Origin: a virus
Virus record (IMG/VR): IMGVR_UViG_3300037516_000329
Location: 1-26,311 of that record
Strand: one strand, 5' to 3'
Length of the DNA stretch: 26,311 bases
This document shows positions 2,533 through 18,062 of the stretch, piece after piece (the first letter of the stretch is position 1; every line of letters begins with the position of its first letter). The position numbers and the translations under genes are program-made. The notes beneath the pieces were generated by a model. The model searched no databases and had not been told where the DNA came from. It saw only the letters and a program-made list of their open reading frames with translations.

Positions 2533-4341
2533 ATGGCACTGAGTAACCAGTACATGGTCGAAGCCGAAAACGGTTTCATCGGCATGCAAAGCCGATTGAA
2601 TCCGCTCCAGCTTGAGCCTGGATATGTCCAGCTCTCGCAGAATATGCGGCTTGACCTTGGTATTGCTATTACTCGCAAAGGCCAGAAGCGCCTGACCACC
2701 GTAGATATTGCCGGGTTACCGATCTACGGCTCAGGCGTCTTTTCAACCGCGGCCGGCGTCGAGTACATCATCATGGCGATGGCCGGCGCACTTTATATTT
2801 ACAACACCGCCACGCTAACCGTTGGCAGCGCGATCAACTATCCCACGGGTCGCACCATCGCAGTGACCGACAAGGTCGATATCGTGCAGGCCAACAACGT
2901 GGCCTACATCTTCCGCGGTCAGGGCAGCGATCCTGTTTCAGTTACCAGCATCACACGCTCAGGATCTACCGCCACCGTCACGATCACCTCGCACGGTTTT
3001 TCAAATGGTGACGAGGTCATCATCTCGGGCGCAACCCAGACCGAATACAACGGCTCATTCGTAATTTCCAACGTCGCTACGAACACGTTCGACTACACGG
3101 TGACCGGCACGCCTGCCACGCCGGCAACTGGCACGATTGTCTGCAAGAAAGGTAAGGCGCCGCTCGTCTGGGATGGCGCATCCACGGTGAGCGTAGTCCC
3201 CCAGGGCGTGACTACTGGCGCATCGGCCAACATGCCATGCAGCGATTTTGGTCTTTATTTCAAGAATCGTCTGGTAGTGAAAACGGCGCGTGACCGTATC
3301 GCCGCGTCAGACTACCTCGACTACAACACTTGGGACGTGGACTTCGCGCAGTTCGTGATCAACCTCGGATCCAACGACGCCATCGTCGGATTCCAGCCGT
3401 GGCAGGAAGACAAGTTCATCATCTTTGAGCGCAACTCGATCTACTACGCCTACATTGATCCCAATGGCTACACGTCTGGCGCCGCCCCCGGTGGCACTTC
3501 TTTTATTCAATCCTTGACCGCAGAATTTGGATGCTCGGCTCGGCGCACCGTAGTGAATGCCGGCGAGTACATCTTCTTTCTTTCGGACAACGGCGTGTAT
3601 CTCCTCAACCCTTCGCTTGATTTAAAGCTACTCGGGAACACGACGCCGCTGTCCGATCCTATCTCGGATATCATCGCCAGAATTAACGCCACTGCGGTCT
3701 CTGGTGCCGTTGGGCGCATGTTCAACAACCGCTACTATCTGGCCGTCCCCATCGATGGCGCCACGCGCAACAATGCGGTGCTGGTCTACTCGATGCTCAA
3801 CAAGGCGTGGGAGTCCATCGACACATTCCCCACCGGAATGTACGTCGATAATTTTGTCGTATCACTCTACGGGCAGGCCAAGCGCATGTACGCCATTAAC
3901 CGCGAGAATGGCATCTTCCTATGCGAAGAACTCAACTACGACGAGTTTGATAATCTGACCGGCACGCCCACGCTGCCATTCCAGATCCCCGCGTACATCA
4001 CGAACAATTTCCGTCAGTACCAAGTCGCCGGCCAGATTCTTTCGCGTCGGTATTTTTACAATACCTTTACCTCAAAACGATTCGCATCCGGTGAGGTCGA
4101 CATCCTGTCCAACGCAAACGACACGCTGGTCATCACGGCCATCGCTAAGAATCCCGACAACTCGTCCGAGGTCTTCACGTTCTCGTCAGGATCTAACCAA
4201 GATTACACGGTGCGCTTCCCAATCGCAAAGCGTGGTTTTGGTCTGGATCTCAAGTTCGAGTCCACCTTTGGCCGGCCAACGATTCGTGGTCTGCGCGTCA
4301 ACGCTACCGTGCCAGGCCGCAATCTGGTATCTGAGCAGTAA
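2533..4341 (+). CDS. virion stabilisation / tail-tube-like structural protein, 602 aa
   Basis: The N-terminal region with LEPGYVQLSQNMRLDLGIAI followed by TRKGQKRL matches the pattern (few-residue insertions around QN-x-RLD-x-G...R-x-G-x-KRL) seen in podovirus packaged-DNA stabilisation or tail-tubular-B-like proteins. Long beta-rich stretches follow, as expected for a beta-propeller-like tail component. Residues about 133-205 (DPVSVTSITRSGSTATVT and onward, ending GTIVCKKG) look like an inserted Ig/FCCH-type domain, commonly swapped between phage proteins. It is Ser/Tyr/Asn-rich, as virion proteins often are. The stop overlaps the next ATG (TAATG), indicating coupled translation. Structural identity is confident; assignment to one named family is not, since both the gp10-stabilisation and T7 gp12-like groups share this look. 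Confidence 0.65.
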   Translation: MALSNQYMVEAENGFIGMQSRLNPLQLEPGYVQLSQNMRLDLGIAITRKGQKRLTTVDIAGLPIYGSGVFSTAAGVEYIIMAMAGALYIYNTATLTVGSAINYPTGRTIAVTDKVDIVQANNVAYIFRGQGSDPVSVTSITRSGSTATVTITSHGFSNGDEVIISGATQTEYNGSFVISNVATNTFDYTVTGTPATPATGTIVCKKGKAPLVWDGASTVSVVPQGVTTGASANMPCSDFGLYFKNRLVVKTARDRIAASDYLDYNTWDVDFAQFVINLGSNDAIVGFQPWQEDKFIIFERNSIYYAYIDPNGYTSGAAPGGTSFIQSLTAEFGCSARRTVVNAGEYIFFLSDNGVYLLNPSLDLKLLGNTTPLSDPISDIIARINATAVSGAVGRMFNNRYYLAVPIDGATRNNAVLVYSMLNKAWESIDTFPTGMYVDNFVVSLYGQAKRMYAINRENGIFLCEELNYDEFDNLTGTPTLPFQIPAYITNNFRQYQVAGQILSRRYFYNTFTSKRFASGEVDILSNANDTLVITAIAKNPDNSSEVFTFSSGSNQDYTVRFPIAKRGFGLDLKFESTFGRPTIRGLRVNATVPGRNLVSEQ

Positions 4342-4769
4342 TGAATGCTGATGCTCAACAGACCGACTGGCTCGAGCACATTACCGACTTTGCCGTCAAC
4401 AACGGTGGCGCCGGCTGCTTCATTAACTGGCCAAGAGAAAACGTCCGTCAGTACCTCGCATTCCACGCCGGCCAAAACACTCTTGCCTTGGTAAAAGATA
4501 AGGGTCAGATCGTTGCACTCGGCACCGCGATCCAATGCAATCCCGAGGAGATCACGGCAAAGTGGGAGTGGCGCGGCACCAATCCATTCGGCAAGATTCT
4601 GGTGATCCTTGATGTCGTAAATACCCGCAAGGGCGGGCTTACTCTACTCTTCTTAGAAATGTTCAAACGCTGGCCGGCTGGATCCGTTGAGCGCGTCGTT
4701 GCGCTCCGTCCCAACAAGGTCATCGAACTCACTCCAAAATACATTCAACTCGCAGCTTTAAAGGGATAA
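4341..4769 (+). CDS. small virion-region protein, 142 aa, possibly GNAT-fold-like
   Basis: The start codon shares a base with the previous stop (TAATG at 4339-4343), so expression is probably coupled to the stabilisation-like gene. The protein has alternating strands and helices: LALVKDKGQIVALGTAIQ, then KILVILDVVNTRKGGLTLLF, then a helix and GSVERVVALRPNKVIELTPK. A strand-rich core with a helix after V-hydrophobic-VVNTRKGG is reminiscent of acetyltransferase-like or T7 gp13-like proteins encoded at this position in short-tailed phages. I see no unambiguous acetyl-CoA binding loop, so enzymatic function is not claimed. A role in virion morphogenesis follows from position only. Confidence 0.5.
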   Translation: MNADAQQTDWLEHITDFAVNNGGAGCFINWPRENVRQYLAFHAGQNTLALVKDKGQIVALGTAIQCNPEEITAKWEWRGTNPFGKILVILDVVNTRKGGLTLLFLEMFKRWPAGSVERVVALRPNKVIELTPKYIQLAALKG

Positions 4770-4773
4770 AAAC

Positions 4774-7107
4774 ATGGGATCTACAACTGTTCAGACAGCT
4801 CCGCAACGTAATTACGCACAAGAAACTCAGGACACACTGGCCACGCAGATCGCGTTGGCGCCAGAGTTGTATGCATCCGAGGCTCAGTACCAGCCGCAAT
4901 ACAATCAGCTTCAACTTAAGCTGGCCGAGCAGGCGATGTTTGGCACCGAAGGCCAAGCCGGTCTGTTGGATCAATACAGACGTTCATCGGAACAATTTCA
5001 AGGCATCCAGCAGGGCTTAAACACTCAGCAACGCTTGGCCGACATTCAAGATGTCACTAATTTAGCGCCAGCCGCTCAGGCTGCATTTAAGGCCGCAAAT
5101 CCTGAGCTGTTTGCTCAGATGGAGCAGGCAAAAGCACTTCAAGCGAGCAACAATCAGCCGTTCAATCGTCTGAATGCTTTCTTGTCGGTGCCACCAAGTC
5201 AGCAGGACATCGCCGCGCAGCAAATCACCGGCCCTAACATCAACGCGCAGATGGTTGGCCGTGAGAATACCTCGTTTGGTAATATCAACACGATGGATGT
5301 CGCCGCGCAGCAGATGGCGTCGCCGGGATCCGTGCAAGCTCAACAACTCGCCGCAGCTCAGGTCGCCGCACCTGGCACCGTAGGCGCCGAGCGCGTGGGC
5401 GCTGCGCTCATTGAGACGCCGGCTCAAGTTCAAGCTCGCAATGTGCGCACTCAAGCACTGCAGGCCCAACAGGTCGCCGCCCCGCAACAAGTGCAGGCCG
5501 GTCTGATTCAGCCAGGCACGCTCGGCGCCAGTCTCTACGGTCAGGCACTCAACGCTGGCCCATCAAGGATCTCGAGCGCACTCGAGAGCGCCGTACTTGG
5601 CAATCTTACCGCGGATGGCAGTCTCAGCCCCGCCGAGCAACGTCAGGCCGAGCAGCAAGTGCGTGCATCCTACGCCGCTCGCGGCATGGCGATGTCACCA
5701 CAAGCGATCAGTGCCGAAGTGCAGAATCGTTTGGTTAACCAACGCCAACGCGCCATTGAGAACCTCGGTCTGGCCGGCCAAGTGAACCAGCAGTTGCAAG
5801 CAGAGCAGGCCGCGAATCGTGGCTTTGCCGGCAATGTCTTTGGCGCTGATGTTGGCATGCAGCAGCAGAACATCGGTAATCAGCTCGCTGCTGGTCAATT
5901 CAATGCTCAGACTGGTCTACAGGCTGCCTTGGCCAATCAGGCTGCGGGTAACCAGATGGCGCAACAAAATGCCGCGAACCAACTCCAGGCTCAGTTGGCG
6001 AATCAGCAAGCCGGTCTGCAAGCCGGTCAATTCAACGCCAGCACCTCGATCCAAGCCCAACAAGCCAATCAGGACGCTCTTCTCCGCGCTCAATTGGCAA
6101 ACCAACAGGCTGGCATTCAGACTGGTCAATTTAACGCGCAGACTGGTCTGCAAGCGGATCTGGCTAATCAGCAGGCCGCAAATCAGATCGCTCTGGCTAA
6201 TCAGCAAGCTGGTCTGCAAGCCGGTCAATTTAACGTCAACACGCAGGCTCAACTGCAGGCTCAGAATCAGGATGCCGCTCTACGCGCTGCTCTGGCCAAC
6301 CAGCAGGTCAATCTGCAGGGTCAGCAATTCAATGCGTTAAATCAATCTCAGGTCGCTCAGGCTAATCGTGATGCTGCCCAACAAGCCGGCCTTGCAAATC
6401 AGGCCGCGAATCTGCAGCAGCAGCAGTTGATGGCTCAGTACGGCTACCAGACTCAGGCTGCGAATCAGCAGGCCAATCTCGGCACCGCTGAGAGCAATCG
6501 TGCGTTTCAAGCTCAACAGCTTCAGAACTACTACCAGAATCTCGGCCAAGCTGGGCAACTCTACAACCAAGGTCTGGGTGCAGATCGCGCCTACGCTGCG
6601 CAGTTGGTGGGTCTGCAGCAGGCCACGATGTCGGATCCGTATGCTGCGATCCTCGGCCGGTCTTCTACTGCTGGCAATGTTGCGCAGAACACGACCAACC
6701 AAGGCATGAACCTGTCGAACATGGCTGGCCCTGCGCTGTTCAATCCAGAGTCGAGCTACGCCAACAATATCTACGGTGGCAATCAACAGTCCACAAACGC
6801 TGCGAACATCGCCACGGCTCAATCCAACGCCGCGGTGCTTGGTGGCGCCATGCAGGGTCTTGGATCTCTTGCCGGCGGTCAATTGGGAGCGGCTATTTAC
6901 AAATGTTGGGTCGCCCGCGAGGTCTACGGCGCCAACAATCCAAAATGGAAACGCTTCCGCACCTGGTTGCTCACTCGCGCTCCAAAATGGTTCCACGACT
7001 TCTACTGCAAATATGGCGCACAGTTCGCTGAGTTTATCAGCGACAAACCACGCACCAAGAGTCTCATTCGTCGGTGGATGGACTCGCGCATCGCAACTCT
7101 CAAATAA
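4774..7107 (+). CDS. Q/N/A-rich internal virion-like protein with hendecad repeats and conserved CWVARE C-terminus
   Basis: This 777-aa protein starts 4 bp after the upstream stop with an A-rich leader. The N-terminus (residues 5-60) resembles many environmental phage virion proteins: YAQETQDTL, then LYASEAQYQPQYNQLQL. Residues about 125-245 carry short beta-type repeats (VAAPGTVGAERV, VAAPQQVQAGL). Residues about 366-620 are almost wholly 11-residue units rich in A, N and Q, with an exact 33-residue period from residue 409. The last 67 residues, from C711 (CWVAREVYG, then NPKW, APKWFHDFY, IRRWMD), form a separate basic/aromatic domain found at the C-terminus of many phage proteins. By position and size it is a candidate DNA-ejection or internal virion protein; no enzyme motif is visible. 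Confidence 0.65.
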   Translation: MGSTTVQTAPQRNYAQETQDTLATQIALAPELYASEAQYQPQYNQLQLKLAEQAMFGTEGQAGLLDQYRRSSEQFQGIQQGLNTQQRLADIQDVTNLAPAAQAAFKAANPELFAQMEQAKALQASNNQPFNRLNAFLSVPPSQQDIAAQQITGPNINAQMVGRENTSFGNINTMDVAAQQMASPGSVQAQQLAAAQVAAPGTVGAERVGAALIETPAQVQARNVRTQALQAQQVAAPQQVQAGLIQPGTLGASLYGQALNAGPSRISSALESAVLGNLTADGSLSPAEQRQAEQQVRASYAARGMAMSPQAISAEVQNRLVNQRQRAIENLGLAGQVNQQLQAEQAANRGFAGNVFGADVGMQQQNIGNQLAAGQFNAQTGLQAALANQAAGNQMAQQNAANQLQAQLANQQAGLQAGQFNASTSIQAQQANQDALLRAQLANQQAGIQTGQFNAQTGLQADLANQQAANQIALANQQAGLQAGQFNVNTQAQLQAQNQDAALRAALANQQVNLQGQQFNALNQSQVAQANRDAAQQAGLANQAANLQQQQLMAQYGYQTQAANQQANLGTAESNRAFQAQQLQNYYQNLGQAGQLYNQGLGADRAYAAQLVGLQQATMSDPYAAILGRSSTAGNVAQNTTNQGMNLSNMAGPALFNPESSYANNIYGGNQQSTNAANIATAQSNAAVLGGAMQGLGSLAGGQLGAAIYKCWVAREVYGANNPKWKRFRTWLLTRAPKWFHDFYCKYGAQFAEFISDKPRTKSLIRRWMDSRIATLK
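5998..6492 (+). repeat. five tandem 99-bp units (33-residue, 3 x 11) inside the internal virion gene
   Basis: Units begin at 5998, 6097, 6196, 6295 and 6394, exactly 99 bp apart, each opening with codons for ANQ(Q/A). The first four contain a (Q)FNA-type second block. DNA identity is highest between the units at 5998 and 6196 and falls in the last two. Each unit is three 11-residue blocks, for example ANQQAGLQAGQ, FNASTSIQAQQ and ANQDALLRAQL. Further 11-residue blocks precede (from about 5870) and follow it. Confidence 0.85.
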
Positions 7108-7113
7108 TTCACC

Positions 7114-8406
7114 ATGCAAAAAGGCCCATACTTTCAACCAGTCCAGTACATCAGCCCTGTTCCAGAGGGCTATGCTCAGGCCGGCGCCAACATTGGTCGA
7201 TCCATTGGTGGCGGTCTTGCTGCGCTTGGTGCAGGCGTTTCCGAGGGTATTGATAAATACTACAAGTCAGAGGAAGAGCGCCAGGCACTTGGTGGCACCA
7301 TCAGCAGATATTTCAAAAGCGATCCGAAATTGGCTGAGACGGTCGATCCAAAATTGCTAGAAAAATACACGTCTGGTAAAGCTACGCTTGCTGATCACAA
7401 AGCTCTCTTTGCCGATATCAGCACCGAGCAAATGCTCCAGCAAAAGAAGCTCCAAGCCGAAACCGCACGCTTGGCCAATGAGCGCAGCAATGCAGAGCTA
7501 AATTATCTTAAATCAAAAGATAATGATAACAAAATAATGCAGCAAGCAATAGCATTTAATATAGATACGAATGGAGATCTTGATATACCTTCTGCGTTGC
7601 AGACGTTTTCTGAAATGGGTGGAAATATCGCTAACAACGATGTTATTGCAGGTCTTAAAAATGTTCAGAACATTACTTTTGGCACTGAACCAAAGATTAA
7701 GACGCTTACTGGTGAAAGCGGTCAATCTGTTGACGTATTACAAACCGGCCCAGGCAGCGCTACTGTTATTCAAAGAGAAAAACCAGCAGCAACACCTATG
7801 CCGCAAAGTGAGCTAGGTAAAAAACAATTTGATCGAGATCAGGCATTGCGCTCTGGAAATGAAAAAGATGCTGCAGACATTCAAAAAGAAATTGATGCTC
7901 AGGTTAAAAAAGATGCTGAATCTAATGGAGCAAAACCGTTAACCGCAGATCAATCTAATGCTCTTAATTTCTCTCTTCGTTTGATCCAGAACGAAGATTT
8001 TCTTAATAAAAATAAATACGACGCAACGGCATTTTTTAACCAGTCGTTTACTCCAGAACGGTTAACGAGTGATGATAAAAAAGCATATGATGCAGCCAAA
8101 AATAATTGGATTGCTGCTGCTCTTCGTAAAGAATCGGGCGCAGCTATTGGCCCAGATGAATACAATAAATACGATAAACAATATTTCCCACAAGGTGGAG
8201 ATGGAAAAACCGTAATAGAGCAAAAGCAATTGATGCGTAATCAATTGATTCAAGGCATGACCGCTGGCATTGGCCCAAGTGCTGCAGATTATCTTTCTCG
8301 GTTACAAGTTAAGCCAACACCACCACCCGTAGTCGCACCTGTAACGGTTAAAGCTCCAAGCGGACTTAACTACACGGTAACCCGCGAGCCTGCAAAAAAG
8401 CGTTAA
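7114..8406 (+). CDS. internal virion / structural protein, 430 aa, function unknown
   Basis: It begins MQKGPYFQPVQYISPVPEGY and continues with a Gly/Ala-rich, possibly membrane-active segment (residues about 25-48: NIGRSIGGGLAALGAGVSEG). A long helical coiled-coil-like region follows (about residues 105-140, LQQKKLQAETARLANERSN). The C-terminal third holds RKESGAAIGPDEYNKY, then YFPQGGD and a helix with KQLMRNQLIQG, a motif set I have seen in uncharacterised virion-region proteins of phages. Between about 7490 and 8310 the DNA is much richer in A and T than on either side. The neighbours are both large virion-like genes, which makes a DNA-ejection role likely by position. No catalytic motif is seen. 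Confidence 0.55.
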   Translation: MQKGPYFQPVQYISPVPEGYAQAGANIGRSIGGGLAALGAGVSEGIDKYYKSEEERQALGGTISRYFKSDPKLAETVDPKLLEKYTSGKATLADHKALFADISTEQMLQQKKLQAETARLANERSNAELNYLKSKDNDNKIMQQAIAFNIDTNGDLDIPSALQTFSEMGGNIANNDVIAGLKNVQNITFGTEPKIKTLTGESGQSVDVLQTGPGSATVIQREKPAATPMPQSELGKKQFDRDQALRSGNEKDAADIQKEIDAQVKKDAESNGAKPLTADQSNALNFSLRLIQNEDFLNKNKYDATAFFNQSFTPERLTSDDKKAYDAAKNNWIAAALRKESGAAIGPDEYNKYDKQYFPQGGDGKTVIEQKQLMRNQLIQGMTAGIGPSAADYLSRLQVKPTPPPVVAPVTVKAPSGLNYTVTREPAKKR

Positions 8407-8410
8407 TAAT

Positions 8411-11400
8411 ATGCCAACAACCGTAAACGTACCCGGCAGAGGAACGCTCACTTTTGACGATAATGTTTCTGATGCAGAAATTCAGCAGATCGTTCAGAAG
8501 GAATTTCCTGTAAACGGTGAGGACGTAGTTCGATCAATTGCGGAGGATCCATCCTATGCGCAGCGCATGAGTCGTGATGACTTCATGGAGATGCGCAGAT
8601 ACAAGGATGATAATCCTATCGCGTTTTCGACTAAGTTGGCCGAGGCGTTTGGCGGCATTGGAGAACTGGTAAGTAATGCGTTTACCACTGCTCCCAAATT
8701 TGATCCACAGGCCGGCCCAATTGAAAAAGGCGTGTCGCTTGTCGCTAACATTGGCCAAGGTGCGATGGTTGGCGCCGGCGACTTTGCCAATATGTTTTTG
8801 GGTATGGTCGAGGGCTATTCCAACGACAACAACAGCTACACCCGATACCGTCTATCAAACGATCTGAAGGACACGCCAGAAAACAAGGCCGCATACGACC
8901 AGATCATCGACAAAGATTTTGAGAATTTTAAGGCGTTGCAGACTTGGCAACAAACCAGAAAAGATATCTTAGGCCAATCTTCAATGCCAGCAATGGCAGA
9001 AACGATCAGTCTTGTTGCTCAACCTCCGTTGCCTGGTGCCGCTTTGCTTGAGGCCGCGGGCGTTGGTGAACGCATCGGTATGATGGGCGCCAGGGCTGCA
9101 CAAATGGGCGGCAAGGGCATTCAAGCCGTTGGTGAAGCCACTAGTGCTGTCGCTAAGGTGCCACAACAAGTTGCCGGCGCCGCAGCACAGGCACTCACAG
9201 GCAGCGAAAAAGTTGGCGGCATGGTCGAGAAGGCCGTTGCCACAGGCTCCACAGGGCTTGCTGCTGGCCAATTGGGCGGCTTTGCCATCCCAGGACTTAG
9301 TACCGCTGCCACAAGCATTGCCGGCGCTAAAGCGATTGGTAAGGGTCTAGAGGTCGCGGGCGAGGTCACGCAAAAGCTCGCAGAGCATGCTGGCAAGAAA
9401 GCCGGCCGACTTGGCGTATACGAGTCACTGGCCAACGATCTGTCCGCATCTACGGCTGCTCGAGCAATTGGTCGTATTGGATCTGTTGCCGGCGCTGACG
9501 TTGTGGCGCCCTACGTTGCTGCAGCCGCTCGAGGTGCCGTTGAAGGTGCTGCTATTGGTGGCGCTCTCGGATTTATCACAGACGGCGAGGAAGGTGCTGC
9601 TGGTGGCATGGGCGCCGGTCTCGCGCTCGGCGGCGCAGGTGGTCTTGCTGGCCGCGGCTACGCTCAGGGATCTGGCATGCTTCGTAATAACAAGATCCAG
9701 AATGATGCCGTGCGCGGCATTGCCAGCCTTGAGCCAGAGAGCCGGGCTAACGCATCGCGCCTATTTGACCAGTTTATCAAGGACGGAAACCATGAGGCCG
9801 TGGCCGAGATGGTCGATGCCAAGAACTGGTTGAGCAGTGACGTTTACTTTTCTTTTATCAATAATGAGCAGGCCAAGGCGATGCCTGCGGCTAAAGGCAC
9901 ATCGTTTGAGGGCATTACGGTATTTCCATCTGCCGTTACTGGCGGCAAGCCGGCGATCTACATTAACGTCGATACCGTCAAGCCTGGCACTGGATTCCAC
10001 GAATCATTCCACGGCGCCATGCGCACGGCGCTTGGTGAGACATTTGGCAAGAAATTCACCGACGTAATTGATCAGACGTTCACGCCAGAGCAGAAAACTC
10101 AATTTGCTGAGGACTACATCAAACGCGGCGGCACCGAGGAAGGTAAGCAAAAGCTGCGCGACTACTTGGCTGAAAAACAAAATCTGCCCGAGGAGATTGG
10201 CGCCGAATACTTCCGCGACTTCCTGCAACGTCGAGAGAATCGTGACTACCTGCTGCGTGGCCAACGCAATACGGATGGATCGCTGATTGCAGCCGCCAAG
10301 GGCGCCATCGATTACACGTTGAGCAAGCTCGGCATCGATTACGATGCTACCGGCACAGGCTACAAGGGCATGGATGCGCTGGCATCAGAACTGATCAAGG
10401 CTCGCACCGACATCAACAAATCCATCGCGCAGAATGGTAAGCCACTCGCGCCGGTTCCGCTTGATAAGATGCCGACGCCAAAGCTGGCAGATTGGGCCAA
10501 ACAACACGGTCAATCTGATGTGCTGCTAAAGGATCCGACAACGGGCGATGTTGTCGGTGTTAAGACCGAGGAGCAGGTTAACATTGGCCGCGAGGCTGCA
10601 TACGCACGCGCCGCTGAAGAGATCGCCAATGTGCCGCGTGGCACGAATGCTCCAAACGATGCCGAGTTGGCCATCTACCAGAAGCATCTCACGCCAGAGC
10701 AATTTGCCAAACTCACGTTTGCAAGCGAGGCGATCAAGAGCGGCAACGTGCTCAATGCAGATCATTTTCCAGCCAGTGCAAAGAAGGGCGAGACATCAGT
10801 CTATGCCAGCCGCGGCATGACCAATCTTGATTTTGTTCCGTACAAGATCCGCACGACTAAGAAAAACGTGATTGTGGTCGATTACGTTGATCTTACGCAA
10901 TTGAAGGCTCGGTTTGACGACATGATGTCGCGCTCCAAGATATCGGAACAGTGGGGCGGCGATAAGGACGCAGCCTGGCAAGATGTCATGGCCTACACTA
11001 AGAATCTAAGCCTTGGTGAAGGCGCCGCAAAACCGAGTGCTCAACTGTTTGGGCCGATCAAGCGGGACATCATCAACAAAATCTACGGATTTGTTCCGAC
11101 CAAGGCCCAGATCTCTGAGGGCGCCATCAAAAACATTTCGTCGCTAGGTACAAATATCGCTGCTGAATCTGGCACCGGAAAAGGTCAGATCGGCAAGCCA
11201 GCCTACGAAGGATCTAAGGATACTCGAGTCGTCAGCACCATGCGGCTGGATCGTCTCGGTCGAGTTGCCGACACCGGCCGTCAATTCTCATTCAATGAGA
11301 ACGGCACCTACGGTCTATCTCAGGTCAATTTCAAGCCGGCTGAAAACCTTGGCAGCGCGAAGGTCAACAACTCGGATGAGGGTTTCCGCATTATCACCAA

Positions 11401-13060
11401 GGGCAACAAGCACAGTCTGTACGCGCCGACTGGCGAGCGGATTGGGATCTACGACACGCCAGACAAGGCTGAAGCAAAGGCAAATTCTATTGAAAAAGCA
11501 TCTCTCAATAAAGATTGGGGAATGAACATTGATACATACAATTCTCTCAAAGAATCTGCACCAAAATACAATTTTCTTCCAGCAGAGCAACAACCAGAAA
11601 ATGTTTCACAAGTAGGTCGTCTTACAACTGGTCAAAAAAATTCGATTCAAGAATTAAGCAGTTATTATAACAGCGTAACTCCAAATCGTATACCAGTGCT
11701 TGAGCGCGATGCGGTTGAATCATTGGCCACTCGCTTGATCAATAAAGGTGTCCCTGTTGCAGAAGCTCAAAAATTATCTGCTGACACATTTAATCGTATC
11801 AAAGGACATGTTGAGGAGTCCGCTCAAGTAATCAGCGGACTGGGCGCATCAGATCTGGCTCGCATGGCCGGCACTGGTCGTCCAACTGCAGAAACACGCA
11901 AAGAAGTGAATCCTGTCTGGCTCACGTCAGCATTTGAGGCATTTCGTAACGATAACGATTTGGCTATGATGAAGGCGCAGCAAGTCGCCACACAGCTAAA
12001 TAAAAAACAGCAAGCCGAGGCAATGTCAGGCAAGCTAGTTAAAGATGCCGTTGCTAGTTCAAAGCGTGCTTCAACTATTGAACAAGGCACTGGATTTCTC
12101 ATTGGTGAAACCAACGCAGACAAGAAAGCATTTGGATCCAGTCTTCGTGAAGACAAGGATTCCGTACCTCGCGTTTATGCTTCAGTTATTGAAGGACAAA
12201 AATTTGGATCTCAAGGAAACTACAATGTTTTCTTTGAATGGAATAAAGAAACACCAATGGTTGTTACAAGCCACCACCATTATGGCGTTGGAAATGGACT
12301 TACCGATATCCATGCATCTGCAAACGTAGGCGATAAAAACGCTCGGTCGTTTGGAAATGTTACCAACGAAAAATATACCACATTACCAAGTGGAAAAAAG
12401 ATTTTGGATACGCACCTGTTAGTTGGTAATGCTGGCATCCCATCAATTCGTGCTCATCAATTGATGGTAAGCATTCCAGAATCAGCGATTCATGATGTTA
12501 AAAAATTCGCTAAAAATGGAGACATGTCTGCAATTGCTGATACGCTTGAATCCGTGGCTTATGGACAATTGGTTGGATCCAATAGCCAAGGTAAAACGCA
12601 AGCATTCACATCATCTGAAGGTGTTGCTCCTAAAGTAGCAATTCAGCGCAATCGCACCGAGGCGTATGTTCTCAATCCAGATCTGGCCAATGTTAAAAGC
12701 GTAACAATCGTCAGCAACAAACCAGAAGAAATCAGAATTTTAAGAAACAATCTGAAAAAGGCATTTGATAATAATGGAATTGAACTTCCAGAAATCAAAG
12801 TGGTGTCTGCTGAAAGTGGGCCAAGTGCTAATCCAGGTCGTGCTGAAATTACTAAAAATTATCTAAGATTGACTGGTGAAGTTGCATTTATGCCCGCCGA
12901 GAAACTCCCCAACGGCCAAGCCTGGAGCGCCGACAACAACTACCGGGTAATCCAGAAGGAAGGCGGCAAATACCGCGTCTACGCTCCCACCGGTGCCATG
13001 ATTGGCGTTGCGGATACCTTGGACAAATCAAAGAAGCTCATTGAAAAGAGGTCACGTTAA
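8411..13060 (+). CDS. giant virion protein, 1549 aa, with HExxH metallopeptidase-like motif and YAPTG repeats
   Basis: The N-terminus (GRGTLTFDDNVSDAEIQQIV, residues 9-28) is a short motif common at the start of phage internal proteins. Residues about 95-130 and 195-430 are Gly/Ala-rich and hydrophobic, possibly membrane-inserting. At residues 530-534 is HESFH, preceded by a strand (PAIYINVDTV) and followed about 60 residues later by EEIGAEYFRDF (594-604); this suits a zincin-type peptidase with E595 or E599 as third ligand. Two copies of a repeat, (F/Y)R(I/V)I...YAPTG..IG..DT..K, lie near residues 987-1030 and 1509-1545, each preceded by a V-x-F-x-PAE element (972 and 1491); a third PAE element is at 1053. 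Size and position suggest a T7 gp16-like ejected protein or polyvalent phage protein. The peptidase call is motif-based and unproven. Confidence 0.65.
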   Translation: MPTTVNVPGRGTLTFDDNVSDAEIQQIVQKEFPVNGEDVVRSIAEDPSYAQRMSRDDFMEMRRYKDDNPIAFSTKLAEAFGGIGELVSNAFTTAPKFDPQAGPIEKGVSLVANIGQGAMVGAGDFANMFLGMVEGYSNDNNSYTRYRLSNDLKDTPENKAAYDQIIDKDFENFKALQTWQQTRKDILGQSSMPAMAETISLVAQPPLPGAALLEAAGVGERIGMMGARAAQMGGKGIQAVGEATSAVAKVPQQVAGAAAQALTGSEKVGGMVEKAVATGSTGLAAGQLGGFAIPGLSTAATSIAGAKAIGKGLEVAGEVTQKLAEHAGKKAGRLGVYESLANDLSASTAARAIGRIGSVAGADVVAPYVAAAARGAVEGAAIGGALGFITDGEEGAAGGMGAGLALGGAGGLAGRGYAQGSGMLRNNKIQNDAVRGIASLEPESRANASRLFDQFIKDGNHEAVAEMVDAKNWLSSDVYFSFINNEQAKAMPAAKGTSFEGITVFPSAVTGGKPAIYINVDTVKPGTGFHESFHGAMRTALGETFGKKFTDVIDQTFTPEQKTQFAEDYIKRGGTEEGKQKLRDYLAEKQNLPEEIGAEYFRDFLQRRENRDYLLRGQRNTDGSLIAAAKGAIDYTLSKLGIDYDATGTGYKGMDALASELIKARTDINKSIAQNGKPLAPVPLDKMPTPKLADWAKQHGQSDVLLKDPTTGDVVGVKTEEQVNIGREAAYARAAEEIANVPRGTNAPNDAELAIYQKHLTPEQFAKLTFASEAIKSGNVLNADHFPASAKKGETSVYASRGMTNLDFVPYKIRTTKKNVIVVDYVDLTQLKARFDDMMSRSKISEQWGGDKDAAWQDVMAYTKNLSLGEGAAKPSAQLFGPIKRDIINKIYGFVPTKAQISEGAIKNISSLGTNIAAESGTGKGQIGKPAYEGSKDTRVVSTMRLDRLGRVADTGRQFSFNENGTYGLSQVNFKPAENLGSAKVNNSDEGFRIITKGNKHSLYAPTGERIGIYDTPDKAEAKANSIEKASLNKDWGMNIDTYNSLKESAPKYNFLPAEQQPENVSQVGRLTTGQKNSIQELSSYYNSVTPNRIPVLERDAVESLATRLINKGVPVAEAQKLSADTFNRIKGHVEESAQVISGLGASDLARMAGTGRPTAETRKEVNPVWLTSAFEAFRNDNDLAMMKAQQVATQLNKKQQAEAMSGKLVKDAVASSKRASTIEQGTGFLIGETNADKKAFGSSLREDKDSVPRVYASVIEGQKFGSQGNYNVFFEWNKETPMVVTSHHHYGVGNGLTDIHASANVGDKNARSFGNVTNEKYTTLPSGKKILDTHLLVGNAGIPSIRAHQLMVSIPESAIHDVKKFAKNGDMSAIADTLESVAYGQLVGSNSQGKTQAFTSSEGVAPKVAIQRNRTEAYVLNPDLANVKSVTIVSNKPEEIRILRNNLKKAFDNNGIELPEIKVVSAESGPSANPGRAEITKNYLRLTGEVAFMPAEKLPNGQAWSADNNYRVIQKEGGKYRVYAPTGAMIGVADTLDKSKKLIEKRSR

Positions 13061-14720: not shown

Positions 14721-15077
14721 ATGAAATACCTCGTACTCCTCGTCGCTCTGGCGGCGCCATTAAAAGCCGATCTCTGGCAGGCCATCTGCAAGGTCGAAAG
14801 CAACAACAACCCAAGGGCAATCGGTGATGGCGGGAAGGCAGTTGGAATTGCTCAGATCTGGCCTATCACCGTGATCGACTGCAACAGGATCTCCAAAAAG
14901 AATTACACTTTAAACGACCGATTTGATCCGATTAAATCACGCGAGATGTTTGTGATCTACACCGAGCACTACGGCAAAGGTAAGTCTGATGGATTTAAGG
15001 CCCGCATATGGAATGCCGGCCCCAAGCGCGCTCATCTGGCCGACAAATATTGGGCGAAAGTAAAGGCGGCGTTATGA
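14721..15077 (+). CDS. secreted SLT-type lytic transglycosylase (endolysin)
   Basis: The first 16 residues, MKYLVLLVALAAPLKA, are a typical Sec-type signal peptide. The mature part begins DLWQAICKVESNNNPRAIGD: E26 in the ICKVESNNNP motif is the likely catalytic Glu of SLT/goose-lysozyme-type enzymes. AVGIAQIWP (about 40-48) is the matching G-x-AQ motif, and RIWNAGPKR (about 94-102) the conserved N-G core. At 118 aa it is a minimal catalytic domain without a cell-wall-binding module, typical of phages of diderm bacteria. It cleaves peptidoglycan glycan strands in the periplasm, with the holin 1.6 kb upstream. It overlaps the next gene by ATGA. Confidence 0.85.
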   Translation: MKYLVLLVALAAPLKADLWQAICKVESNNNPRAIGDGGKAVGIAQIWPITVIDCNRISKKNYTLNDRFDPIKSREMFVIYTEHYGKGKSDGFKARIWNAGPKRAHLADKYWAKVKAAL

Positions 15078-15541
15078 GCAATCTTATCATTGCAGTCGAT
15101 CCCGGTGCATCTGGCGGCATTGCATGGGACAATCATGGCGTCATCGGTGCTGCTGGCATGCCGGCCAGCGTCTGCGATGTCATCGATCTGATGCGCGGCC
15201 TAGTCGTCGGCAATCCACACCCAGAGATCTGGATTGAAGACATCCCAAAATTTGTCGGTAAGGCGATTCCTTCATCGTCGGCTGCAGTGCTTTTCCGTAA
15301 TTTTGGTTACATTGAGGGAGCCGCCACCGCGCTCGGAATCCGCGTCGTGCTTGTCAAACCGCACGACTGGCAAAAACATTTTAAGCTCGGCACCAAAAAA
15401 GATTGCTCTGGCACCACCGAGTGGAAAAACAAGTTAAAGTCAGAGGCAGTGCGACGTTTTCCAACGCTCGACGTTACGCTCAAGACCGCAGATGCGCTGC
15501 TGATCTTGGATTACGCCAAGTCAGTCAATCCAACCAAATAA
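15074..15541 (+). CDS. RuvC-like Holliday junction resolvase / RNase H-fold nuclease, 155 aa
   Basis: ATG 15074 overlaps the lysin stop (ATGA) and places the conserved first strand at the N-terminus: IIAVDPGASGGIAW (residues about 4-17), with D8 as first acidic ligand. IWIEDIPKF (E about 55) and KTADALLILDYA (D about 140) supply the other acidic positions of the RuvC/RNase H fold. An upstream ATG at 15008 would add 22 unrelated residues and disrupt this, so it is rejected. In phages such enzymes resolve branched DNA before packaging. The genes that follow are recombination genes, which fits. Confidence 0.75.
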   Translation: MSNLIIAVDPGASGGIAWDNHGVIGAAGMPASVCDVIDLMRGLVVGNPHPEIWIEDIPKFVGKAIPSSSAAVLFRNFGYIEGAATALGIRVVLVKPHDWQKHFKLGTKKDCSGTTEWKNKLKSEAVRRFPTLDVTLKTADALLILDYAKSVNPTK

Positions 15542-15545
15542 GAAA

Positions 15546-15574
15546 GGCGGCGCCAGCTTTACGCCAACGCCGCC
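15546..15574 (+). promoter_or_regulatory. GC-rich hairpin between resolvase and recombination operon
   Basis: GGCGGCG (15546-15552) pairs perfectly with CGCCGCC (15568-15574), with a 15-base loop that can itself fold. It begins 5 bp after the resolvase stop. No T-run follows, so a factor-independent terminator is unlikely; an mRNA 3' stability element or rho-assisted pause is possible. The rest of the gap to 15624 shows no clear promoter. Confidence 0.4.
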
Positions 15575-15623
15575 CCCAATGAATCCCCGCTCGCACTAGA
15601 GCACATCACTTTTTCTCAGTCCA

Positions 15624-16418
15624 ATGAATAACCCAACATACACAATCGCCACCTCTGGTGGCCCATCGCAACACATCGCGCTCGGTGAGCAAGATGTCTA
15701 TAACCGCATGAGCGATCCGCTCGCTGCCGTTGAAAGGCTGGGCGAGATCATCGCATCCAGCGGCATGTTTGGCTGCACTAAAGTGGAGCAGGGCCAGGTG
15801 CTCGCGCTCCAGTGCATCAGCGAAAAGAAGCCACCGCTCGAGCTGGCCAAGACCTACCACATGATCGAGGGCAAGTTGAGCATGCGTGCCGACGCCATGC
15901 TGGCCAAATTCCAGCTCTCTGGCGGCACCGTTAAGTGGACGAAGCGCGACGACAAGGTCGTCGAGGCTACGTTTACGCTCCGCGGCAACTCGCTGCCATT
16001 CTCAGCCAAGCTCGAGGACTTCGTGACGAACGGCGTGGCCGTCAACCGCGATGGCAAGATGAGGGACAACTGGCGCAAATTTCCACGCCAGATGCTCACC
16101 GCCCGCGTCATTTCTGAGGCCGTGCGTCTTCTGGCGCCCGAGGTCGTATTCGGCGTCTACACGCCCGAGGAGATCCAAGACAGCAACAACTCGGCGCCGG
16201 CTCAGGATCCCATTAAAGTCGAGCCAATCGTAGAGTCCTACGCTGACCAGCTTTCTCCGATCTTGATCGACCACGAACAGAGCGTTAATGCCTACCTGAT
16301 CGCCAAAAAACAGATCAGCGAGGGTCAGACCTTCCGCGATGTGTCGTCTGATTTTGCTAAGAAGATTCTCAGTAATTCTAAAATGTTTCTCGAAGCCGTA
16401 AACTCTCAAACCAAATAA
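15624..16418 (+). CDS. RecT-like single-strand annealing recombinase, 264 aa
   Basis: The central part reads GQVLALQCISEKKPPLELAK, TYHMIEGKLSMRADAMLAKF, then strands (TVKWTKRDDKVVEATFTLRG), then WRKFPRQMLTARVISEAVRL followed by LAPEVVFGVYTPEE. The RQML-x-ARVISE-x-R...P-x-V..G-x-YT-x-EE block is characteristic of RecT-type annealing proteins. It would coat and anneal ssDNA during phage recombination and repair. The C-terminal 70 residues are less conserved. An exonuclease-VIII-like gene and an ssDNA-binding protein lie just downstream, the usual partners of RecT. No SD is visible before ATG 15624. Confidence 0.7.
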   Translation: MNNPTYTIATSGGPSQHIALGEQDVYNRMSDPLAAVERLGEIIASSGMFGCTKVEQGQVLALQCISEKKPPLELAKTYHMIEGKLSMRADAMLAKFQLSGGTVKWTKRDDKVVEATFTLRGNSLPFSAKLEDFVTNGVAVNRDGKMRDNWRKFPRQMLTARVISEAVRLLAPEVVFGVYTPEEIQDSNNSAPAQDPIKVEPIVESYADQLSPILIDHEQSVNAYLIAKKQISEGQTFRDVSSDFAKKILSNSKMFLEAVNSQTK

Positions 16419-16421
16419 ACC

Positions 16422-16814
16422 ATGCACCAATTAGCTGTCACCCTATTAACCGCCAAACTATATGCCTGCAACGCCTATGTCACCAACGACGAAGACGCCT
16501 ACGAAGAAGGCTGCAAAGAGTACGGCGAACACTTCGAGCATGTCATTGAACGAATTATGTTCGATGGCGAAAAGCCAGACATCCAAGCAATCTTCAAAGA
16601 AGCGAGCACAGAAGTCGCTTCCTACGCCTCCGATTCTTACGAAAATAGCGCAATTTGTGCTACTGTTCTGCTTGGCCTTGAGCAGGCCATCATGGCGCTT
16701 CTCGAAGCCGAGTACGAAGCCGCACCGCTCGGCTGGCAAAGTCGTCTGATGCACATGGCAAAGTGCAGCGACGAACGTGTCGCTGAGTACGTTGAAATCC
16801 AAAACGAAGAATAA
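16422..16814 (+). CDS. acidic hypothetical protein, 130 aa
   Basis: The gene sits 3 bp after the RecT-like stop and 9 bp before the nuclease gene, so it belongs to the recombination operon. The product is acidic and helical (EDAYEEGCKEYGEHFEHVIE; EASTEVASYASDSYENSA), with no recognisable motif. Acidic proteins between annealing and nuclease genes could be inhibitors or adaptors of host nuclease or of the partner proteins; nothing in the sequence proves this. Length and codon use resemble its neighbours. Confidence 0.6.
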   Translation: MHQLAVTLLTAKLYACNAYVTNDEDAYEEGCKEYGEHFEHVIERIMFDGEKPDIQAIFKEASTEVASYASDSYENSAICATVLLGLEQAIMALLEAEYEAAPLGWQSRLMHMAKCSDERVAEYVEIQNEE

Positions 16815-16823
16815 TCCCATACA

Positions 16824-17624
16824 ATGAATCCCAACATCTACTACAATCTGTCCGCAGAAAATTATCACAAGTCTGACGGCATCTCAAAGTCTGGTCTTGA
16901 TCAGTTCCGTAAATCGCCGGCGCACTACAAGCACTGGCTTACTGCAGAACGCGAGGAGACGCCGGCCATGCGCCTCGGCACGCTTACTCACATGAGCGTG
17001 TTCCAGCCCGAGCTGTACGCTGACCGCGTCGTCATTGCTCCCATCGTGGATCGTCGCACCAAGGAGGGCAAATCTATCTGGGAGCAGTTCAAGGCCGAGA
17101 ACGAGGGCAAGGACATCATCACGCACGACGAGGCATCGCAGATCCACGCGATGACTCAGAGCGTGCGTCAGCATCCGGTGGTCAAGAAGCTACTCAACAC
17201 CGGCGCCGCGGAGGTTTCCTTGTTCGCCAAGATCGATGGCATCCTGATGAAGGGCCGGCTCGACTACGTTACCAACGAGACGATCCTTGACCTCAAGACT
17301 ACCGAGGATGCAACGCCAGGAGGCTTTGCACGCAGCGTGGCCAACTACCGCTACCATGTGCAGGCGGCGCACTACTTGGCACTCGGAAAGGAACTCGGCA
17401 TGAACCTGACACGATTTTTATTCGTGGCTGTAGAGAAAGAGGCTCCGTATGCCGTTGCCGTTTATGAACTGGATACCGCGGATCTGATGCTGGCCGAGGC
17501 CGAGCGTCAGAAACAGATTGCCATGCTCGGCAACTGCATCGCGTTCGATTCCTGGCCATCGTACCCATCTGAGGTCAAAACACTTTCGCTCCCAAAATGG
17601 GCGACTTCAAACAACAACCAATAA
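16824..17624 (+). CDS. RecE/exonuclease VIII-like PD-(D/E)XK nuclease, 266 aa
   Basis: The N-terminal block (SAENYHKSDGISKSGLDQFR, then KSPAHYKHW) and MRLGTLTHMSVFQPE are classic for the exodeoxyribonuclease-VIII-like family. The catalytic core is visible: FAKIDGILMKGRLDYVTNE (D in GRLDY, about residue 145), then ILDLKTTEDA (D-x-K, about 155-160), then YRYHVQAAHYLA, the Q-x-x-x-Y motif of RecB/AddB-type nucleases. It resects dsDNA 5' to 3' to feed the RecT-like protein encoded 0.4 kb upstream. It is much shorter than full E. coli RecE, as expected for phage versions consisting of the catalytic domain only. Confidence 0.85.
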   Translation: MNPNIYYNLSAENYHKSDGISKSGLDQFRKSPAHYKHWLTAEREETPAMRLGTLTHMSVFQPELYADRVVIAPIVDRRTKEGKSIWEQFKAENEGKDIITHDEASQIHAMTQSVRQHPVVKKLLNTGAAEVSLFAKIDGILMKGRLDYVTNETILDLKTTEDATPGGFARSVANYRYHVQAAHYLALGKELGMNLTRFLFVAVEKEAPYAVAVYELDTADLMLAEAERQKQIAMLGNCIAFDSWPSYPSEVKTLSLPKWATSNNNQ

Positions 17625-17645
17625 TCCCAAACCAACTAAAAAATC

Positions 17646-18062
17646 ATGGCACTATTCAAAGTAGACCGTTCGTCCGCTTCCACAAAATCGTTTGATGCTC
17701 CCGGCATCTACTCGACCGAAATCGTGAAGGCCGAGGCATCACTCACCACGAAAGGTGAAGACCTCGTTAAGCTGATCTTTCGCGGCGAAGACGGCAGCGT
17801 GGCGTCTGACAATTTCCTTAACCGTGAGTCCGTCTGGTGGCGCGTTAATTCGCTGCTGGCCGCGCTTCCGTTGATCAAGATCAGCGAAGGCCAGGAACTC
17901 GACTTCTCCAAAGCCAAGGTCTTTCAGGACTTCGTGAGCCAGTTCGTTGGCCAGAAGGTGAAGATCAAGCTCGAGGAAGAGACCTGGGTCAAAGAGGACA
18001 CCAAGGAAGAAAAGAAGACGCTGAAGATTAAGAAATACCTGCCAGAAACCAACCCGTTTTAA
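17646..18062 (+). CDS. DUF669-like single-stranded DNA-binding protein, 138 aa
   Basis: The pattern FDAPGIYSTEIVKAEASLT, GEDLVKLIFRGEDGS, then FLNRESVWWRVNSLLAAL and KVKIKLEEETWVKED matches the DUF669/OB-fold-like ssDNA-associated proteins encoded next to phage nucleases and recombinases. The C-terminus LPETNPF resembles the aromatic/proline end many ssDNA-binding proteins use to recruit partners. Placement after the annealing protein and exonuclease and before the helicase supports a role in protecting or presenting ssDNA. The exact family needs a profile search; another OB-fold protein is the main alternative. Confidence 0.65.
   Translation: MALFKVDRSSASTKSFDAPGIYSTEIVKAEASLTTKGEDLVKLIFRGEDGSVASDNFLNRESVWWRVNSLLAALPLIKISEGQELDFSKAKVFQDFVSQFVGQKVKIKLEEETWVKEDTKEEKKTLKIKKYLPETNPF

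Follow-up and report, generated by a model that had tools for sequence, protein, structure and literature searches.

How short-tailed phages extend a channel across the much thicker cell envelope is still being worked out, mostly in T7 and P22. The question is raised anew by a 26.3-kb IMG/VR virus record (IMGVR_UViG_3300037516_000329, positions 1 to 26,311; the whole stretch is called the window here), in which a protein of 777 amino acids (aa), P0001, carries a long array of 11-residue blocks rich in Asn and Gln. What does so strict a register build, and could it belong to an ejection passage? The blocks are exact, the array lengths of relatives agree modulo 11, the module is present or absent between syntenic orthologues, and the block signature recurs in HMO-2011-type phages. 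Everything beyond a regular 11-residue register we infer, function included: the gene would encode a short-tailed-phage protein with an optional, length-quantised and Asn/Gln-rich helical module between a core and a C-terminal part. The elements of the gene are:

4774..7107, plus strand: gene of the array protein (P0001, 777 aa), an ATG-started open frame with the same layout in close relatives L002-L004, L006 and L009
5605..5808, plus strand: conserved core motif LSPAEQRQAEQQVRASYAARGMAMSPQAISAEVQNRL..., ahead of the array and, by alignments, also in array-less relatives; served as search query
5791..6522, plus strand: approximate extent, by alignment, of the module lacking in syntenic orthologue L011 (residues 340-583)
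5866..6591, plus strand: 22 in-phase 11-residue blocks (residues 365-606), from the phase table and lag statistics
5998..6492, plus strand: five 33-residue units with starts at 5998, 6097, 6196, 6295 and 6394, all in frame
6904..7104, plus strand: C-terminal domain CWVAREVYG..., 67 aa, common to HMO-2011 and bacterial proteins

The initial annotation of this DNA had described five units 99 bp apart, with 11-residue blocks continuing on both sides. Both descriptions hold: the units lie 33 codons apart, each opening with ANQ, and the in-phase blocks extend to either side of them. The block consensus is approximately (A/F)-N-Q-Q-A-x-L-Q-A-x-(Q/L), with N at position 2 in 19 of the 22 blocks, Q at position 8 in 17 and one of LIVMFYW at position 7 in 14. 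Repeat analysis of the protein, proposed at the time as a check, upholds the 11-residue array. Over residues 361-620 the top ten autocorrelation lags (33, 66, 55, 22, 44, 99, 88, 77, 11 and 110) are all multiples of 11, and lag 33 gives 44.1% matches (z 12.3 versus 2000 shuffles, with a shuffle maximum of 5.0 over all lags). The 256-residue stretch from anchor to anchor consists of 27% Q, 23% A, 13% N and 10% L, with 4% charged residues and zero proline. At the DNA level the five units show a mutual likeness of 45-70%, too diverged for Tandem Repeats Finder, which lists no array anywhere in the window.

The length of the array obeys a simple rule. Searches of IMG/VR, run with the core motif and the C-terminal domain as well as with the complete protein and its alignment, supplied the relatives, and array length was measured from one fixed motif ahead of the array to another behind it. 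Within each clade the length modulo 11 is constant, in 39 of 39 distinct arrays covering three clades and 17 lengths. Clade 1, that of the window, contributes nine of nine distinct arrays with lengths of 124, 168, 256, 366 and 454 residues, all 3 mod 11 and reckoned as 10, 14, 22, 32 and 40 blocks. The 25 distinct arrays of clade 2, with 10 lengths, all fall into a single class (1 mod 11). A looser right anchor placed 22 of 24 clade 2 arrays in one class; the misfits, L143 and L148, came from the anchor matching an earlier motif copy, and with the correct anchor they measure 210 and 199, both 1 mod 11. All five arrays of clade 3 (lengths 140 and 151) share one class. As a control, the variable stretch upstream of the core has 6 lengths in 5 residue classes in clade 1 and 11 in 8 in clade 2. 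The true length quantum is 11, not 33. The 33-residue period highlighted in the initial annotation is real in the window and fails as a universal rule, the super-period being free: it measures 33 residues in the window, 44 residues in L006, and relatives peak at 22, 33, 44 or 55.

The same register is seen among carriers of the C-terminal domain, for which 80 loci were kept of 99 found, giving 77 non-redundant proteins. The best lag exceeds z 5 in 30 of the 77 (the remaining 47 have none above z 5 or are unscored), and it is a multiple of 11 in 21 of these 30 (33 in 11 proteins, 44 in four, 22 in four, 11 in one and 55 in one). The N/Q fraction at one block position, mostly Asn, is 0.69-0.78 in all three clades. 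A repeat phase drifting between homologues had been named as the finding that would speak against the array; the phase is kept in relatives.

The array is also an optional module. L011 and L108 are syntenic orthologues of 426 and 419 aa without it; their downstream gene is similar in size, and L011 additionally keeps a 1409-aa gene after that one. In the alignment, the flanks of L011 are directly joined where the window holds residues 340-583. Relatives range from 0 to 40 blocks, and L006 shows a recent expansion with a 132-bp (44-residue) unit in 3.5 copies, neighbours being 89-97% identical. The early suggestion that the repeats could change copy number is thus borne out among relatives, with fresh duplications in one of them, and does not extend to the lineage of the window, where array length stays at 256 aa in the three close relatives L002, L003 and L004.

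Cultured phages carry the same signature. A search with the C-terminal domain leads to HMO-2011, which has this domain in common with the window protein, and the HMO-2011 protein leads to 27 phage records. Periodicity at multiples of 11 is found in six of six proteins tested (HMO-2011 gp25, CRP-1 gp35, HTVC115P gp47, phiM6_25 and those of Slicky01 and CHOED, the last being CHOED_013), with combined z of 6.1-14.5, and their blocks are weaker and more diverged than those of the window. Asn is concentrated in one of 11 phases in all six (share 0.37-0.50, against 0.61 in the window), usually with Phe or Ala before it and Ala after it. Cultured carriers exist, among them HMO-2011 itself, Vibrio phage CHOED and phiM6 of Sinorhizobium meliloti 1021; HMO-2011 gp25 and its relatives are annotated only as hypothetical proteins. 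Among the ejection proteins of T7, P22 and P-SSP7, by contrast, none of nine has an 11-periodic array by combined score (highest 3.6). No description of such arrays in double-stranded DNA (dsDNA) phages was found in the open-access literature, where a phiX174 paper was the sole match for hendecads in phages; the terms ‘hendecad’ and ‘coiled’ were not found in the main text of PMC8954989.

What shape do the blocks take? AlphaFold2, run with 20 sequences, draws helices at residues 309-456 and 484-566. The predicted helical propensity is therefore present, at low confidence: the mean predicted local distance difference test (pLDDT) score is 45.1 and the array blocks reach ∼40-64. In the C-terminal domain, segments from residue 711 onward have pLDDT 80-93. 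In the three clades, proline amounts to 0-0.9 per 1000, the mean Pace-Scholtz value is 0.36-0.39 and Chou-Fasman alpha lies above beta; composition and proline content favour helix.

In a textbook hendecad, hydrophobicity is expected to recur at 3.67 residues. On the Fauchere-Pliska scale, power at 3.67 is 0.71, 0.78 and 0.83 in clades 1-3, versus 99% nulls of 1.46-2.06. Scored as LIVMFYW, it exceeds the null in clade 1 only (2.07 versus 1.92), and scored as LIVMFYWA in clade 1 (1.84 versus 1.81) and clade 2 (2.47 versus 1.60). Among single arrays only that of CHOED is significant (shuffle p 0.022). Power at 2.2 residues on the same scales is 6.3-14.5, several-fold stronger. Because power at 3.67 is weak or absent and far greater at 2.2-2.75, the array lacks a single hydrophobic face and is therefore not a textbook amphipathic hendecad: it keeps the exact 11-residue register through length changes but not the single hydrophobic stripe. 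The long amphipathic helix or right-handed coiled coil put forward in the initial annotation accordingly lacks support in that form: on one scale power at 3.67 does not rise above the shuffled control, and on the other scales it is weak. On a 3.67-residue wheel (our own reckoning), apolar positions gather on two opposite sides, 1/5/9 on one and 7/11 on the other, separated by polar positions, as expected for helices packed laterally into a wall or barrel. Bulky hydrophobics avoid i+2 spacing in HMO-type arrays and in those of clades 1 and 3, a measure in which known coiled-coil and beta-helix controls are free of signal.

The genes around the array protein suggest where such a module might work. 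They are:

2533..4341, plus strand: 602-aa neighbour, virion structural or head-closure Hc3-like by PHROG matches, in the tail nozzle position
4341..4769, plus strand: 142-aa neighbour in the T7 gp13 position, an open frame with no family match, kept in L003, L006 and L011
7114..8406, plus strand: 430-aa neighbour in the gp15 / P22 gp20 position, an open frame with no family match
8411..13060, plus strand: 1549-aa neighbour in the gp16 position, an open frame with no family match

The upstream 602-aa protein matches PHROG 3287 (virion structural, E 2.2e-11) and PHROG 578 (head closure Hc3, E 1.4e-5); the P22 record calls gp10 ‘head closure Hc3’. The array protein follows the 142-aa frame and precedes the 430-aa and 1549-aa frames and a holin (PHROG 3427, E 6e-24). 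This order matches 12-13-14-15-16 of T7 and resembles 10-26-14-7-20-16 of P22. Judged by order and size of open reading frames (ORFs) alone, it recurs as a nozzle-like gene, a small gene, that of the array protein, one for ∼420-600 aa and a very large one in 10 of 13 loci, several of which end at a contig edge, and in the same 10 of 13 the array protein sits in the gp14 slot between gp13-like and gp15/gp16-like genes; additional or other ORFs occur in L013, L028 and L130. A terminase is found in four of six related records. The label of internal virion protein thus agrees with gene order and has zero sequence-profile support. P0001 has no match in Pfam, PHROG, NCBIfam or PDB sequences, and P0001 with its relatives gives nothing against PHROG save one chance-level row (E 0.034), whereas T7 gp14 itself matches PHROG 805 at 1.2e-63. 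Comparison of the P0001 family with gp14 by hhalign yields a probability of 0.2-0.3% (core alone, ≤0.1%), and a 30-sequence profile against PDB returns only two chance rows (E 0.19 and 0.59). When 406 ORFs from T7, P22 and P-SSP7 are ranked by hidden Markov model (HMM), core and frame profiles place neither gp14 nor gp7 first, and the top rows are at chance level; the frame profile ranks the P-SSP7 gp14-slot ORF fifth (E 1.6). The 1549-aa family (two sequences) ranks P22 gp20 first and T7 gp16 second at E 0.42-0.44, which is not significant, and the 1549-aa protein has no match in Pfam, PHROG or NCBIfam. Its start (MPTTVNVPGRGTLTFDD...) resembles what we take to be a motif of very large internal virion proteins.

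Likeness to T7 gp14 and P22 gp7 lies in the gene slot, between a small gp13-position gene and gp15/gp16-position genes, in a mostly helical prediction and, in one model, in a core that aligns with the gp14 hairpin and equally well with unrelated helical proteins. The AlphaFold2 model of residues 238-362 (the core) aligns with 8e4g_a (Z 7.0, root-mean-square deviation 5.6, 116 residues) and with 9jz0_0 from a DNA-ejected particle (Z 7.0, 5.8, 111 residues). Both chains are taken as T7 gp14 from their residue ranges and PMC11784390. The model of an array-less relative gives nothing against PDB at E≤0.001, and the gp14 resemblance is a lead, not a claim of membership. According to PMC11784390, ejected T7 has six gp14 copies (residues 25-143), each of two antiparallel helices, forming a channel with gp6.7 in the nozzle, and in the mature T7 particle gp14 links the portal to gp15. 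The gp14-like proteins listed in PMC8954989 have 181-240 aa, against 276-1071 aa here (777 in the window, 426 and 419 in array-less orthologues).

It is tempting to propose, as a tentative preferred reading, that the array is an Asn/Gln-rich helical wall module of an ejection-protein-like podoviral component in the slot of gp14 (T7) and gp7 (P22). Block counts, always whole, point to a rod or tube wall of strict regularity, probably built of helix. One 11-residue block would make three alpha-helix turns, so that whole blocks would lengthen the rod and leave the facing of the parts behind it unchanged. The array helices would pack side by side via the two opposite seams, 1/5/9 and 7/11, with amides on their exposed faces, and after ejection several copies might form or line part of the trans-envelope DNA passage, like the amide-lined tube of phiX174 H. 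According to PMC7354561, H has hendecads, N, Q or R at 18 of 23 lumen residues, and its mutants support a drag role for the glutamines. Shared with this DNA-delivery protein are the blocks of 11 residues and the wealth of amides; H, from a single-stranded DNA microvirus, differs in having three hendecads, a transition and eleven heptads over 121 residues, and in its hydrophobic spacing. P0001 has no match among PDB sequences at E 1, the only comparison by which a sequence relation to H was sought. A DNA conduit role is plausible, and the module may help to carry phage DNA through the cell envelope. A wider proposal, doubtful as it stands, is that in dsDNA phages with short tails, the abundant HMO-2011 type among them, the ejection passage is partly a length-adjustable wall of Asn/Gln-rich helical blocks, convergent with phiX174 H and evolving in length only by whole three-turn steps, the array being a modular, tunable conduit or drag element. 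An amide-rich array that occupies the same gene slot, varies by exact 11-residue steps and is absent from some orthologues makes a natural series of lengths in which to ask whether such arrays set conduit length or drag.

Several findings weigh against the helical wall module. Profile, HMM and family searches give no sequence-level link to T7 gp14 or P22 gp7, and the fold match to gp14 is tied with unrelated helical proteins and unlisted for the array-less relative's model. Both AlphaFold2 models are of poor quality (mean pLDDT 45.1 and 55.2). Hydrophobic power dominates at 2.2-2.75 rather than at 3.67, and in-phase data cannot separate two opposite helix seams from strand-like alternation. 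That block number runs from 0 to 40 while the downstream gene stays unchanged is odd for a conduit bridging a fixed gap, and the size of the gp15-slot protein, contrary to what compensation would imply, does not track array length (419-597 aa over 0-40 blocks); different hosts, or a drag role instead of length, could reconcile this range with a conduit. Finally, unequal recombination between repeats would likewise yield whole-block length changes. Selection on the register is argued nevertheless, because no other net indel occurs in 39 arrays whereas the neighbouring stretch tolerates them.

The last point bears equally on an entropic, low-complexity Q/N-rich spacer, a flexible tether of nearly irrelevant length in the virion, connecting, for example, the C-terminal domain with one bound to the core. 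Such a tether would sit well with 0-40 blocks in syntenic relatives, low pLDDT and the lack of a single hydrophobic face. It would need no fixed Asn phase, yet N/Q dominates one of the 11 positions in three clades, and out-of-register net indels, tolerated next door, are excluded in 39 of 39 arrays; we regard it as unlikely. The hydrophobic pattern would suit a regular beta-structure with solenoid-like stacking and an Asn ladder, 11 residues forming an edge or half-coil: apolar residues tend to take the odd positions and polar ones the even, power at 2.2 residues (also at 2.75) is seen in most cultured relatives as well as in three clades, and there is one conserved Asn per 11 residues. Chou-Fasman preference for alpha in all three clades, proline at none or nearly none, the helix drawn by AlphaFold2 and the shunning of i+2 by bulky hydrophobics in clades 1 and 3 and HMO-type arrays (controls uninformative) argue the other way, and make this fold distinctly improbable. 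No better placed is a virion-internal packing protein that touches packaged DNA via amides, or fills the core above the portal, with no conduit at all. The position in an ejection-protein cluster, the amide-rich array and the bridging by gp14 in mature T7 (PMC11784390) are compatible with it, whereas basic residues would be expected for DNA packing and only 4% of the array is charged. A long, repeat-built, apparently helical protein changing in whole units also recalls a tape-measure-like tail ruler; with a head-closure/nozzle-like neighbour, a podoviral gene order and syntenic orthologues without the array, a ruler is very improbable.

The C-terminal domain approaches CFI-box-CTERM (NCBIfam NF041770) at 19.1 bits against a cut-off of 40 (E 8.6e-4), below threshold; the open-access literature yielded no paper on the CFI-box. 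The CWVAREVYG domain also ends bacterial proteins, Planctomycetota standing in 75 of 80 record titles by our own count (loci including L180 and L250). A polysaccharide-export pattern occurs in 28 of the 80 C-terminal-domain loci, with Poly_export confirmed by Pfam in two of two tested. A ‘secretin-like’ label, given to 36 of 80 carriers by regular expression, was dropped after Pfam gave VWA/TPR on two of them.

Two further stretches of P0001 lie outside the array:

5188..5523, plus strand: second repetitive stretch, APxxVxAxxV type (residues 139-250), from lag-11 identity
6829..6885, plus strand: Gly/Ala-rich hydrophobic stretch (residues 686-704), mean Kyte-Doolittle (KD) value 0.96

The former has a lag-11 identity of ≤0.25 around residues 166-232 and pLDDT 25-43, and is missing in L011. 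Clade 2 relatives (e.g. L112 and L137) have an AAPTVxAQGY-type repeat ahead of the core whose length changes freely. Also upstream of the core, L006:5860-6083 holds a 60-bp repeat in 3.7 copies with 90% matches (20 residues, GRENTGFNNISARDIDAS type). The Gly/Ala-rich stretch, with a best 19-residue hydrophobicity of 0.96 in P0001, is weak and membrane-insertion-like; in 11 short relatives the best value is 1.17-1.96 (1.73-1.96 in L012-L016), and its location is not constant.

Some neighbouring genes deserve mention. The small gene adjoining the array protein of HTVC115P, in a gp13-like neighbourhood (L252:3392-3841), is annotated as a toxin-activating lysine-acyltransferase, and in another T7-like record the gp13-position gene is annotated ‘internal virion protein A / acetyltransferase’. 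In L013 the relative of the array protein is followed by two ORFs (7479-8682), presumably SET-domain-like and PAPS-reductase-like, judged by motifs alone. Further along the window, positions 15008-18059 form a recombination cluster with PHROG matches to a Holliday junction resolvase, a RecT-like annealing protein, an exonuclease VIII-like protein and SSB.

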